This document shows positions 32,958-57,833 of a DNA stretch of 61,817 bases, in pieces (position 1 is the stretch's first letter; every line of letters begins with the position of its first letter). The notes under the pieces are model-generated. The model did not search any database. It saw only the letters and a program-made list of their open reading frames with translations, and had not been told where the DNA came from. The translations under genes and the position numbers were made by a program. The stretch is from the NCBI GenBank assembly GCA_018052735.1, contig JAGPMT010000013.1, positions 1-61,817 of the forward strand. Reading direction: 5' to 3'. The stretch comes from Phycisphaerae bacterium (GTDB taxonomy: Bacteria; Planctomycetota; Phycisphaerae; Sedimentisphaerales; Anaerohalosphaeraceae).

Positions 32958-33767
32958 ATGAAAAAAAGATCCGCTTTTACTCTTATTGAACTGCTCGTTG
33001 TAATAGCCATCATTGCTCTTCTGCTCAGCGTGATTATACCTGCCTTGCGAAAGGCAAAAACGCAATCCAAAATGGTCGTTTGCAGAAGCAATATGAGAGG
33101 TGTCCAGACAGGTCTGCTGCTGTATCTGGAAGCCAATGACCAAAAGATGTTTCCGTACAGCGGCTGGCTTTGGATAAAGAAACTGGAAGCCCACGTCGGC
33201 GACTTGGACGAGATACGGTATTGTCCTGAAATTGTTGCAGGCGTCGATGCGGCGCTTCAAGCAGCCCAGACAGCCAATGCCAACCGCTGGGGAACCTCGC
33301 GTCAGCCATGGGTCTGGCGGCAGACAGATCCTGTCACCGGACAAATGCTTTATGAGGCCGGGGGATTAGGATTTAACGGCTGGCTGTATGGAAATGTAAA
33401 TACATGGGTGCCGGCAGGCATGGAAAACTATCCATACAAAACGATGTCCGAAGTTACAAGCCCCAGCAAAACACCCGTTTTTGCCGATGAAAACTGGGTT
33501 GATTCGTGGCCGCGAAATACAAATCAACTGCATCCCAACCTTCTGTCCGATCCGCAAACCTACTACAACACGGGGGATACCACAGGCGGCACATCCGACT
33601 ACGCAATGGGACGTTTTCTGGTCAATCGGCACTTCAATCTGCGAATTAATATTTCCTTCATTGATGGTCATGTCGAAATGATTGATATGAAAGACCTTTG
33701 GACATTGGCTTGGCATCGCGGAGCAAAGCCGAATTTTTCCATTACCCTGCCCAAAGCGAAAAACTAA
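32958..33767 (+). CDS. Type IV pseudopilin-like protein 1 (H-X-DG family)
   Basis: The 269-residue protein has a 6-residue leader ending in Ala before FTLIELLVVIAIIALLL, the prepilin-peptidase site and N-terminal helix. The remainder is a Trp- and Asn-rich beta domain. Near residue 225 it has His followed 10 residues later by DGHVE, one residue more than in the two neighbours. Such proteins are exported through type II or pilus-like machinery and occur in large numbers in Planctomycetota and relatives. The exact role of each is unknown. It is the first of three tandem paralogues. Confidence 0.85.
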   Translation: MKKRSAFTLIELLVVIAIIALLLSVIIPALRKAKTQSKMVVCRSNMRGVQTGLLLYLEANDQKMFPYSGWLWIKKLEAHVGDLDEIRYCPEIVAGVDAALQAAQTANANRWGTSRQPWVWRQTDPVTGQMLYEAGGLGFNGWLYGNVNTWVPAGMENYPYKTMSEVTSPSKTPVFADENWVDSWPRNTNQLHPNLLSDPQTYYNTGDTTGGTSDYAMGRFLVNRHFNLRINISFIDGHVEMIDMKDLWTLAWHRGAKPNFSITLPKAKN

Positions 33768-33894
33768 CGCAGCTTTGAAAGATACCGCCCTGTTTATTTC
33801 AATAGGCAGTTCTTGTATTGCATCATTTAAGGTATTATATATCTGCTTATGCTTTATATTCAGCGCGTTTGCAAATTTTCAGCAAAGCATCTGC

Positions 33895-33923
33895 TTGCTT
33901 TCTTGCAGATAAGCCTATATAAT
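33895..33923 (+). promoter_or_regulatory. Sigma70-type promoter for pseudopilin gene 2
   Basis: TTGCTT (33895-33900), a 17-base spacer and TATAAT (33918-33923) lie 56 bases before the ATG at 33979. Confidence 0.75.
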
Positions 33924-33978
33924 GGTTTAGCAAACGCTTTATAAACAATCATACTGCCAAAAACCGGAGACTATAAAA

Positions 33979-34848
33979 ATGAAGAAACATTCTGCCTTCA
34001 CATTAATCGAACTCCTCGTTGTAATTGCCATTATCGCTTTGCTGCTTGCTATTATCCTGCCGGGTTTGCGGGCTGCCAAGGAATTAGCATCCGGCGTGGT
34101 CTGTCAGAACAACCTCAAACAGCTGAATCTGGCATGGACATCGTATTATAACGACAACAACAGTCTGCTGGTGGGCGGTTCAAATTATTACAGCGGGACA
34201 CGGGCCACTCCCTACCGCTGGGTTGAGCCGCCGCTGCTGAAAGACACAGACAATCCCGAATTTGTGGGCATTGCACCGATGGCTCAGTATTCGCTTCAGA
34301 CCCGCAAAAACGGGATTCGTGCAGGCAAACTGTTCCCCTACACGCAGGATGAAGAATTGTATCACTGCCCCGGCGACCGGAATATCACCAAGCTGGAACC
34401 CGAAGCTATTTACCGAAGCTATGCCATTACAGGTCTAATGAACGGGGAAGACTTTATTGACCGCTACGCGGGCCTGTACTCGCCGATACGAACCCAGCGA
34501 ACCGCTATTGGAAAGACCCTGAATGTAGTAATTAAGTTTTCGGAAGTCCGCGCTCCGGGCAATAAAATTGTCTTTATGGAAGAAGATGTCGCCAGCAAAG
34601 CTACAAAGCAGTACTATAATGCAGGCGGATTTGTTTTATTGGGCGGCGGAGCGTTTGCATGGTGGGATTGGCCGGCCTATTACCACAACGACAGTAGCAC
34701 CATTGGTTTTGCTGACGGTCATGCCGAGCGGCATCGCTGGCGTGATTCCGATACGCTGAATCTGATAAAGGAAGGCAAGGCGGATCCGGATCCGGTCAAT
34801 AACCAAGACCTGCAATGGCTGGTACAGGGGTATATGCCCAAGCCCTGA
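33979..34848 (+). CDS. Type IV pseudopilin-like protein 2 (H-X9-DG family)
   Basis: The 289-residue paralogue begins MKKHSA before FTLIELLVVIAIIALLL, then CQNNLKQLNLAWTSYYNDN, the helix-to-sheet junction typical of the family. The H-X9-DG motif is at about residue 236 (YHNDSSTIGFADGHAERH). The conserved C-terminal domain suggests a secreted or surface pseudopilin rather than a fibre subunit. It has its own consensus promoter and lies 45 bases before the third paralogue, so those two are probably co-transcribed. Confidence 0.88.
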   Translation: MKKHSAFTLIELLVVIAIIALLLAIILPGLRAAKELASGVVCQNNLKQLNLAWTSYYNDNNSLLVGGSNYYSGTRATPYRWVEPPLLKDTDNPEFVGIAPMAQYSLQTRKNGIRAGKLFPYTQDEELYHCPGDRNITKLEPEAIYRSYAITGLMNGEDFIDRYAGLYSPIRTQRTAIGKTLNVVIKFSEVRAPGNKIVFMEEDVASKATKQYYNAGGFVLLGGGAFAWWDWPAYYHNDSSTIGFADGHAERHRWRDSDTLNLIKEGKADPDPVNNQDLQWLVQGYMPKP

Positions 34849-34893
34849 GGCTCATCCACACATTCACGAATAGCAGATGACGAGAGATGAAGA

Positions 34894-35760
34894 ATGAAAA
34901 GAAATCGTGCCTTTACACTCATTGAGCTGCTGGTCGTGATTGCCATCATCGCCCTGCTGTTAAGCGTGGTCATTCCTGCAATGAAGAATGCCAAACGGCT
35001 TGCGGCAGCGGCTGTTTGTCTGTCCAACGAAGGGCAGATGGTTAAAGCGTGGCTTATGTATGCCGAACAATATGACAGCAAATTTGTCGACGGCGACACG
35101 TCCGATGATTTGGTCCGGCCGGGCTACACCAACTACGGAAGCGGATATGTCTGGAACTGGGTTGGACGGCCCATGGGACCGGCCAAACAAGATATCAACG
35201 ACACGCTGGAAGACAAATTCCGCGGCTTCGAGGCAGGAGGTTTATGGCCGTTTATTCAGGCGCCGAAGGCCTACCATTGCCCTGCGGATTTGCGCCATTT
35301 GAGACGTGCCGTTTATCCCTATAACAGCACAACCGGCAATCCTCCGGGATTGTGGATCGGCGGCTATCGGACCTATTCCATCGGAAAGGTTTTGTCTGTC
35401 CGGCCCGCAAGCGGTTCGGGGGAAGACCGGGTTACTGTTTCAAAAGTATCGGAAATCGTCAACACCTCCGCAAAGATTGTCTTTCTGGAAGAAACCGACG
35501 GCTACGGCTGGAATCACCGAACATGGAATATGAATCTGCTGAGCCCGCAATGGGTGGACCCGTTTGCTATCCTGCACAACGACAGCAGCACATTCGCGTA
35601 TGCGGACGGCCATGCAGACCGACACAAATGGGTGGACCAGCAGACGCGGGATATGGCCAAAGCTCAGCAGAAGGGCTGGTCGGCGGTGGATCCCAAAACC
35701 GGCTCAACGCAGGATTACGACTGGTTCAAGCGGTCGTACATGCCCAAACAGTTCAAATAG
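34894..35760 (+). CDS. Type IV pseudopilin-like protein 3 (H-X9-DG family)
   Basis: The 288-residue paralogue starts MKRNRA before FTLIELLVVIAIIALLL, with CLSNEGQMVKAWLMYAEQYDS after the helix and H-X9-DG at about residue 228 (LHNDSSTFAYADGHADRH). It shares with protein 2 the C-terminal run YMPK. All three neighbours have Ala rather than Gly before the cleavage point. It is followed after 58 bases by the archease gene, with no terminator seen between them. Confidence 0.88.
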   Translation: MKRNRAFTLIELLVVIAIIALLLSVVIPAMKNAKRLAAAAVCLSNEGQMVKAWLMYAEQYDSKFVDGDTSDDLVRPGYTNYGSGYVWNWVGRPMGPAKQDINDTLEDKFRGFEAGGLWPFIQAPKAYHCPADLRHLRRAVYPYNSTTGNPPGLWIGGYRTYSIGKVLSVRPASGSGEDRVTVSKVSEIVNTSAKIVFLEETDGYGWNHRTWNMNLLSPQWVDPFAILHNDSSTFAYADGHADRHKWVDQQTRDMAKAQQKGWSAVDPKTGSTQDYDWFKRSYMPKQFK

Positions 35761-55431: not shown

Positions 55432-55563
55432 GGCATTCTTTTTTAGTCGGGATCAACAGAATTTACAAGAACTTTTTCACATACCGGCAAGGGCATATCC
55501 CTGCCCCGACGGCATCGATACAAAAACGCCGGCACCGCTGGGGGCGGCACCGCTGCGCTGGTG

Positions 55564-56469
55564 TTATTGTGCTGTCCACTTCAGCTTCGATTCCGCTGTC
55601 CACTTCAGCTTCGAAATGCGGTCTTGACGGACAAACTCGACATGGCCGTCAACAAAGGCGACATGGCAGCCGGAGGTAGCTCCCTCATCATGCCTCAGCA
55701 GCAGGTCCTCCGGCCCTCCCATCTGGTTGAACCGTTCCTTGCGGAGACGGCCATCTTGGTCATAGTGAAGCAATCCAGTTTGCCGCCGGATTTTTCCAGA
55801 TTCACTTTGAACCCCGCTTTCGAAGCCCTTGCTGGTCTCAAAAAGCATCACCATATCGGGCGGCAGACTATGCGATTTTCTGCCGGCGATATAGTTGTTC
55901 ATGGCATACGAACTTTCCCCTATAACAGCATCGGAAGCCGGACACACAAATGCCTGCGGCGACACATTCGCCTGCTCAATCAGCAAATCGCACCAATTTT
56001 CCCCCGGCAGCACATCTTCGTGACTATATGCATAAAAAATCATAGCCGCGGCTAATGCTTTCAAATTGGAGCTGCACATTGTCCGCTGGGCAATACTCTG
56101 TGTCTTATGCAAAGCCGGCAGCAAAATCGGCGTCAGCAACCCATTGAAAAAAGGGATAAAAAGAACCATCACCAACGGAATAACAATGCCCGTTATCGCC
56201 ATGCCGGTTCCTTTGAGGACGCCGCGCTGGCCGCTGATTTTGATTAAGGCGATAATGCCGCAGAGAATCGCCGGAAACGCCAAAATCGGACATAGGACAC
56301 AGGTCATGCACAGCAGACCCATCACCAAAGATGCTATCGCCAGCCGGCTGGTTCGGGGCTGCACGGCCGCCTGCTGCCCTTGGCCCGGTGTGCCCATCAG
56401 GCAAGTCCCGCAATTGACGCAATATACCGCCCCGTCGGAATTCTGAATGCCGCATTTCGTACAATACAT
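55564..56469 (-). CDS. Zinc-ribbon/DUF4190-like/pseudopilin-domain fusion protein
   Basis: The 301-residue protein has three parts. Residues 1-22 are a zinc ribbon (Cys3, Cys6, Cys17, Cys20). Residues about 40-115 contain two membrane segments with LKGTGMAITGIVI, as in DUF4190. Residues about 116-285 resemble the periplasmic part of H-X9-DG pseudopilins (LLPALHKTQSIAQRTMCSSNLKAL and VAFVDGHVEFV), but the cleavable FTLIELL helix is missing, so it stays in the membrane by the DUF4190 segment. It ends in a repeated SKLKWTA(E/Q). AAAGGAG precedes the ATG. Confidence 0.75.
   Translation of the reverse strand: MYCTKCGIQNSDGAVYCVNCGTCLMGTPGQGQQAAVQPRTSRLAIASLVMGLLCMTCVLCPILAFPAILCGIIALIKISGQRGVLKGTGMAITGIVIPLVMVLFIPFFNGLLTPILLPALHKTQSIAQRTMCSSNLKALAAAMIFYAYSHEDVLPGENWCDLLIEQANVSPQAFVCPASDAVIGESSYAMNNYIAGRKSHSLPPDMVMLFETSKGFESGVQSESGKIRRQTGLLHYDQDGRLRKERFNQMGGPEDLLLRHDEGATSGCHVAFVDGHVEFVRQDRISKLKWTAESKLKWTAQ
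55571..55614. repeat. 24-base tandem duplication at the 3' end of the fusion gene
   Basis: GCTGTCCACTTCAGCTTCGA occurs at 55571-55590 and again at 55595-55614. The 24-base period keeps the reading frame and duplicates 8 residues (SKLKWTAE and SKLKWTAQ). Confidence 0.9.
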
Positions 56470-56563
56470 ACCAGGTCTCCTTTCAGCACAATATCCTCAC
56501 TTCTCAGTGCTCACTTATAAATACTCTCACCCGAAAGCCGTTGCTGAAAATTCCGTACGAATT

Positions 56564-57341: not shown

Positions 57342-57833
57342 TCAGTCCGCGGCTTGTTTACAGACCGATTTTACTGCCTGCATAAAGGCATCGGGCTGCT
57401 GCGTGCCGACCAGAAACTTCCGGCCGTTTTTCAGCTCAATCTGAATGCCCTGATTGCCTTTGATGTTATAGGCGCCGCCTGATTTACCGCACCGGATGCC
57501 CCAGCCGCCGTATTCCGCAACCGGCGAATACTGACGGGCATATATTTTTTCAATCTCATCCCAGCCAATCTTTCGGCAGGGAAAATGCAGCGGGGCAAAA
57601 TAGATTTCTATCCGGTCCGGATAAACCTCGCTGACCAGCCGAAGCGAAGCCAGCAGAATATCCAGCAGCGCAGCCGCCAGCCCTGCAATCCCCAGAATGG
57701 TCTTGGCCGAAGGCAGCAATTCGGTTGTAAGTATCAGAAGCACAACTACAGCGGCTAAAACAACCGTTCCCGACAATAGAATCAACGATAAAAACCACGG
57801 CCATCGCTGGCTTTCTGTCCATAGCGGCATCAT
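57342..57833 (-). CDS. Membrane protein with PH-like domain
   Basis: The 163-residue protein has two N-terminal membrane helices (about 11-36 and 42-66), followed by a soluble domain with EVYPDRIEIYFAPLHFPCRK, EYGGWGIRCGKSGGAYNIKGN and ELKNGRKFLVGTQQPDAF. This pattern resembles a small PH-like domain family. Its function is not known. The start overlaps the rmuC stop by 4 bases (ATGA), so they are co-translated. Confidence 0.65.
   Translation of the reverse strand: MMPLWTESQRWPWFLSLILLSGTVVLAAVVVLLILTTELLPSAKTILGIAGLAAALLDILLASLRLVSEVYPDRIEIYFAPLHFPCRKIGWDEIEKIYARQYSPVAEYGGWGIRCGKSGGAYNIKGNQGIQIELKNGRKFLVGTQQPDAFMQAVKSVCKQAAD

Follow-up and report, generated by a model that had tools for sequence, protein, structure and literature searches.

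A pseudopilin-type exodomain carried by a zinc ribbon and DUF4190 anchor in place of the cleavable pilin start

Introduction

Proteins of the DUF1559/H-X9-DG type make up one of the largest groups of paralogues in planctomycetes, with 68 members in Planctopirus limnophila (PMC10632474); the passages on them in PMC10632474, PMC2754498 and PMC5352709 state how large the group is or refer to it, and report no tested function. A non-pilin carrier of the exodomain is known in kind, since the section of PMC8567305 on the SBP_bac_10 proteins of Tuwongella immobilis describes members without a prepilin motif; three carry a signal peptide of the Sec/SPI type, and one protein that was identified has SBP_bac_10 only. 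There, too, the exodomain family is carried by something other than the cleavable pilin helix; that section mentions neither a zinc ribbon nor DUF4190. A second point of comparison is offered by modular pilins such as PilB of Streptococcus sanguinis, in which, according to the part of PMC8179133 that treats them, a cleavable pilin destined for the filament is followed by additional grafted modules.

Here we describe a protein of 301 residues encoded in a 61,817-nucleotide stretch of DNA from a Phycisphaerae bacterium (the window, meaning the whole stretch that was analysed). By profile it has the same alpha-1 helix and exodomain as the pseudopilins of the Planctomycetota (PF07596, TIGR04294). 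The pseudopilins in the window, however, have an FTLIE cleavage motif, whereas the 301-residue protein has a zinc ribbon and a DUF4190 domain instead, together with an H-X13-DG motif. Like the modular pilins it joins a pilin part to an unrelated module, but by the reverse design, the pilin exodomain being grafted behind a non-pilin anchor. It also passes the curated cut-off of the DUF4190 proteins (PF13828), with DUF4190 serving as an anchor only. Our literature search found no paper that mentions DUF4190 or gives it a function, and none on the combination of zinc ribbon, DUF4190 and pseudopilin exodomain; PMC11032199 contains none of the searched terms. The initial annotation of this DNA did not know the architecture from the literature, which agrees with the search as far as the full combination goes, but SBP_bac_10 proteins without a prepilin motif are already present in the section of PMC8567305 cited above.

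Results and discussion

Domain organization

The gene, the features of its product and the pseudopilins used for comparison are listed in Table 1.

Table 1. Positions in the window of the gene, its domains and related features.
Feature	Position	Strand	Basis
Gene for membrane-fixed pilin-like protein, 301 aa	55564..56469	minus	ORF, ATG at 56469
Shine-Dalgarno-like GAAAGGAG	56477..56484	minus	7 nt 5' of ATG, read from DNA
Zinc ribbon, residues 2-22, Cys 3, 6, 17, 20	56404..56466	minus	Pfam Zn_Ribbon_1 (PF13240), 29.1 bits vs cut-off 25
DUF4190 membrane anchor, residues 43-104	56158..56343	minus	Pfam PF13828, 40.9 bits vs cut-off 35
Continuous helix, residues 105-149, from end of last membrane helix into pilin alpha-1 (ILLPALHKTQSIAQRTMCSSNLKALAAAMIFYA)	56023..56157	minus	AlphaFold2; alignment at 99-151 with own-genome pseudopilins
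Pseudopilin-type exodomain, residues 150-293	55591..56022	minus	hhalign without alpha-1; structure model
H260-X13-D274-G275, variant of H-X9-DG	55645..55692	minus	TIGR04294 match; spacing measured
C-terminal direct duplication SKLKWTAE/SKLKWTAQ, residues 286-301	55567..55614	minus	24 bases, read from DNA
Terminator-like stem, 9 pairs and T-rich tail	55530..55552	minus	directly 3' of stop codon, pattern scan
Three cleavable H-X9-DG-type pseudopilins for comparison, 32958-33767, 33979-34848, 34894-35760	32958..35760	plus	FTLIELLVVIAIIALLL motif in all three

Both Cys-x2-Cys pairs of the zinc ribbon are present and the gathering score of PF13240 is passed; RanBP2-type zinc fingers are also among the Foldseek rows for the structural model, at E values above 1. 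The DUF4190 match is the sole one in the genome. SBP_bac_10/DUF1559 (PF07596) matches from residue 128 with 23.5 bits against a cut-off of 23.3, which is marginal by itself, and the NCBIfam H-X9-DG domain (TIGR04294) matches residues 266-281 with 23.8 bits against a cut-off of 19, covering profile positions 7-22 of 22 only. Among the 11 TIGR04294 matches listed for the genome, 5 of them over the cut-off, the window protein ranks best. Its initial description as an H-X9-DG protein stands at the level of the domain match but not of the literal spacing, which is missing, the histidine being placed 13 residues before D274-G275. Relatives mostly have H-X10-DG, and 25 of 47 distinct open reading frames from similarity-selected loci have that spacing alone. 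The zinc ribbon is probably cytosolic and the exodomain periplasmic, which is also where a pilin has it, because the basic loop KISGQRGVLKG that follows the second helix would lie inside by the positive-inside rule.

Retention of alpha-1 without the cleavage signal

The 301-residue protein contains no class III signal (G-[FM]-T-L-x-E, FTLIE-like), and there is no acidic residue in 84-118 that could stand for Glu5 of the mature pilin helix. Alpha-1 is nevertheless kept from about residue 105. The weak relatives of the protein in its own genome are pseudopilins with a pilin start motif, which align at about residues 99-151, and in the AlphaFold2 model a single 45-residue helix (105-149) joins the membrane anchor to the exodomain. 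The loss is confined to the class III signal, Glu5 and the front part of the pilin membrane segment, and the rest of alpha-1 continues the last membrane helix. The initial annotation had the whole pilin helix replaced; this is right for the cleavable front and needs correcting for the retained part.

Relationship of the exodomain to pseudopilins

With alpha-1 removed, hhalign aligned a profile of 21 relatives to a 16-row pseudopilin profile with 98.7% probability (P 3e-16), and the comparison with 7 pseudopilins of the window type gave 96.1% (P 3e-9); all 30 column-shuffled profiles run as a chance control reached at most 0.6%. The homology of the exodomain to pseudopilins is thereby confirmed as not due to chance, a claim carried by the sequence profiles. 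With the domain matches over their cut-offs and the class III motif missing, the 96.1% match bears out the central proposal of the initial annotation, in which a zinc ribbon and DUF4190 anchor that is not cleavable carries an exodomain of the pseudopilin type.

The AlphaFold2 model has a mean pLDDT of 82 and a pTM of 0.64, with pLDDT values of 88-98 over most of residues 121-210 and 92-98 over 251-290. Helix 105-149 is followed by short helices and by strands at 188-191, 206-212, 265-272 and 277-281, and the model closes with a helix. This is the element order of the pilin fold, with a long alpha-1 and a small sheet; VIA-align Z scores are low, and a Foldseek search of the PDB with the whole model gave no match at E <= 0.001, so that pilins surfaced only with VIA-align. 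Of the 13 chains with Z >= 2 in VIA-align, four are pilin or pseudopilin entries (8uhf, 9a1f, 1ay2 and 1oqw), with Z 3.9-4.2, rmsd 4.5-6.7 Å and 108-123 aligned residues; they are tied with unrelated rows, and two further unrelated rows, which cover residues 31-111 only, rank above them with Z 4.7. A profile search of PDB sequences gave 22 rows, 5 of them chains of pilins or pseudopilins, whose E values of 0.18-0.77 are not significant.

The pseudopilin at 34894-35760 was modelled as a control and shows a helix at 9-59, strands at 195-199, 231-236 and 241-245, and a helix at 249-259; all five rows listed for it by VIA-align are type IV pilins, with Z 2.3-4.5. The element order of the two models is similar, but the mean pLDDT of the control is 54 and the structural comparison is therefore weak on that side. 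The initial annotation had staked its proposal on a pseudopilin fold at residues 116-285, with which the long alpha-1 and small sheet agree. It had also looked to a comparison with the pseudopilins at 33-36 kb, where the element order is similar and the Z scores of 3.9-4.2 are about those of the control (2.3-4.5), all of them low and the control model being of low confidence.

Conservation of the short exodomain family

Relatives at E <= 1e-12 occur in 35 of 98 related genomes, its own counted. A scan of named genomes yielded 155 relatives and 80 loci were kept, nearly all named as Phycisphaerae, Sedimentisphaerales, Phycisphaerales or Planctomycetota; of 392 genomes sampled across the phylum, 9 have a match at E <= 1e-20, and 6 of these, including its own, belong to the order of the window or are closer. 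A class-wide count obtained with query A4 (292 of 298 genomes) was set aside, because true pilins match it via alpha-1. Residues C132, W159, C176, Y188, N191, F210, E211, N248, G251, G252, C268, L288 and W290, with others, are invariant in 26 proteins.

A short WCDLL-type exodomain is encoded by 47 distinct open reading frames, of which 20 have both the zinc ribbon and DUF4190, 7 DUF4190 only, 1 the zinc ribbon only and 19 neither, counts that come from loci picked by similarity and are not unbiased frequencies. The zinc ribbon is thus inessential to the family. A regex scan with inspection of its match found a genuine class III motif in none of the 47, which indicates that the short-exodomain family is fixed, or at least non-pilin, throughout. 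The single regex match is the start region of a non-pilin, counted among the 19 with neither anchor.

Other carriers of related exodomains

Related exodomains are found on several other proteins. A single frame in the chromosome of Phycisphaerales bacterium bin71 (L066:6972-8684) encodes an N-terminus with cysteine pairs, a Ser/Thr kinase (Pkinase, 3.3e-58), DUF4190 (1.8e-12) and the exodomain, and at L104:7776-9332 an anti-sigma-type zf-HC2 domain is followed by a pilin-like helix with SBP_bac_10 and then DUF4349; each of these two fusions was found once. When the DUF4190-exodomain part of L066 was used to look for further kinase fusions, 41 of 298 genomes had matches, the best relatives lying in open frames mostly of 230-440 residues, too short for a kinase. 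Two long frames (530 and 546 residues) were rejected as kinase fusions, their upstream part looking out-of-frame. The WCDLL exodomain also ends a large protein with LamG and beta-helix matches and a sub-threshold dockerin match (L057:1-1983) and a large GLUG-repeat protein (L058:3870-5585); in both it comes after a dockerin-like stretch, with no membrane helix recognised in front. DUF3352 precedes the exodomain in L154 and a metallo-beta-lactamase domain in L157. By analogy, such carriers suggest that the exodomain may serve for recognition or binding where no filament is involved.

Anchor exchange in the longer exodomain family

Similar heads on different anchors occur in a related family with a longer exodomain. 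A tandem array at L059:6330-9460 comprises one cleavable pilin copy and two zinc ribbon/DUF4190 copies whose heads are 62-74% identical to it; the protein with the pilin start GFTLVELLV and a zinc ribbon/DUF4190 copy on the same contig share 74% identity over 266 residues. L071 holds two pairs under different anchors, with 71.5% identity over 253 residues and 62.5% over 261, the motif being degenerate in one of its two pilin-like copies. The sample as a whole comprises 186 distinct open reading frames that match the exodomain profile, 60 of them classed as pilin-type, 77 as anchored by DUF4190, of which 46 also have a zinc ribbon, and 49 as other, again counts from loci selected by similarity.

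A tree of 59 longer exodomains (17 DUF4190-anchored, 42 pilin-type), cut to start near the conserved Cys of alpha-1, requires 8 changes between the cleavable pilin helix and DUF4190, of which 6 are forced by well-supported branches. A single-clade topology is rejected (AU p 6.9e-5), and a single change suffices in none of 200 bootstrap trees. The tree describes the longer exodomain family, not that of the window protein, and does not give the direction of the changes. A first tree with all 63 rows had 9 changes for the DUF4190 label, 7 of them forced; from the second we left out L176 for its very long branch, and L092 and two L099 rows for a long common branch and doubtful anchor class, while L088 was relabelled DUF4190 from its sequence. 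As judged from these alignments and trees, heads and anchors have been recombined in the longer exodomain family, with or without gene conversion, which could contribute in the tandem arrays.

Genomic neighbourhood

The window and L046, L048, L049, L051 and L052 share one arrangement, in which an ispD homologue stands downstream of the gene in the same orientation and a TPR lipoprotein gene and tilS come after it. L042 has the TPR lipoprotein and tilS in common with these loci, and gapA is next, as read from the sequence, in L042, L046, L049, L051 and the window. In L043, L047 and L053 the relative comes after mreB-mreC-mreD and a PBP gene, near rsmH, in a cell-wall cluster, and in L054, L064, L067 and L070 the exodomain gene is near mfd. 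Neighbours were identified with Pfam in the window, L043 and L054 and grouped by BLAST in the other loci. Among the conserved neighbours found (ispD, TPR lipoprotein, tilS, gapA; mreBCD; mfd), no secretion or pilus gene was recognised, and there was no regulator gene and nothing pointing to signalling. The genome (2.9 Mb) does have secretion or pilus machinery, with 18 matches above the cut-off to ATPases of the T2SSE family but a single match to prepilin peptidase (Peptidase_A24).

Proposed role

The 301-residue protein is best read, with modest confidence, as a membrane-tethered recognition head and not as a filament subunit. It would be fixed in the membrane and non-cleavable, with the zinc ribbon in the cytosol and the membrane helices supplied by DUF4190, the last of which would continue unbroken into alpha-1 and bear the small exodomain on the periplasmic side. 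Neither processing by the prepilin peptidase nor pulling into a pseudopilus would be expected, because a membrane domain precedes alpha-1 and both the class III signal and Glu5 are missing. From a fixed place in the inner membrane, the exodomain may bind the kind of partner or ligand that is also bound by other exodomains of the pseudopilin type in the group, and the zinc ribbon may contact something in the cytosol. A receptor role is plausible by analogy with the other carriers of related exodomains, among them a kinase, an anti-sigma-type zinc finger and enzymes of the periplasmic type. A strict transmembrane signal receptor, in which the exodomain senses a signal and the zinc ribbon relays it to a partner in the cytosol, much as might happen in the fusions with a kinase or an anti-sigma-type domain, is a narrower form of the same reading. 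The fusions in L066 (Pkinase, DUF4190 and exodomain) and L104 (zf-HC2, SBP_bac_10 and DUF4349) speak for it, but each is a single case, a regulator gene is not a conserved neighbour and many relatives have no zinc ribbon; in this strict form we regard it as unlikely.

The initial annotation had also raised an assembly factor, that is, a fixed pseudopilin that docks on other pseudopilins via the conserved alpha-1 and starts or regulates pseudopilus assembly at its base. What stands of this is the good conservation of alpha-1 from the membrane exit onward, where it resembles cleavable pilins, and with it the ATPase and peptidase matches of the genome. Nothing beyond the helix points to such a function, however: the front of alpha-1, which is the core of pilus assembly, has been replaced, the conserved neighbours include no recognised secretion or pilus gene, and related exodomains are also carried by enzymes or lack a recognised membrane helix, which makes this role distinctly unlikely. 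That the protein is a left-over pilin paralogue, deprived of its cleavage signal by a fusion and without any particular function, might be argued from the large and fast-changing character of the H-X9-DG group and from the deviating histidine position and C-terminal duplication of the window protein. The invariant residues across 26 proteins and the common place beside ispD, lipoprotein and tilS genes in loci of several MAGs indicate selection, and we consider this explanation quite improbable. Least credible of all is a cryptic cleavage, in which the prepilin peptidase would cut within DUF4190 after KGTG (residues 86-89) and free a pilin without Glu5. Lys-Gly-x-Gly is indeed followed by a hydrophobic helix ahead of alpha-1, and three of the four pilin rows of VIA-align have pilin residue 1 opposite residues 90-96 of the model; but KGxG belongs to the DUF4190 stretch itself in the family, position 5 is not acidic, and the leader would comprise 89 residues with membrane helices, so that we give this idea next to no weight.

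Taken further, the reading as a tethered recognition head leads to a broader proposal, which is possible though doubtful: the pilin exodomains of the phylum may be anchor-independent recognition modules, placed repeatedly either on cleavable, filament-borne pseudopilins or on anchors that are fixed and linked to the cytosol (zinc ribbon/DUF4190, a kinase or an anti-sigma-type zinc finger); membrane receptors and filament subunits encoded next to each other would then read the same ligand. A head that is swapped between cleavable pilin helices and fixed anchors is thereby separated from the filament, so that a search for its ligand can use a protein that is soluble or fixed in the membrane and needs no secretion machine. 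Should fixed and filament-borne heads turn out to share a binding target, the role of the entire DUF1559/H-X9-DG group would become testable.

Gene ends and flanking sequence

The stem 3' of the stop codon is no more than suggestive of a terminator, as the pattern scan found 3 sites where 3.6 were expected from shuffles. TRF at score 30 gave no row for the C-terminal duplication SKLKWTAE/SKLKWTAQ. Relatives are mostly without this duplication, their sequence stopping soon after a single LKW or LRW. Between an SDR gene and rmuC, positions 57342-57833 encode a predicted membrane protein of 163 residues with no Pfam match at E <= 1e-4.
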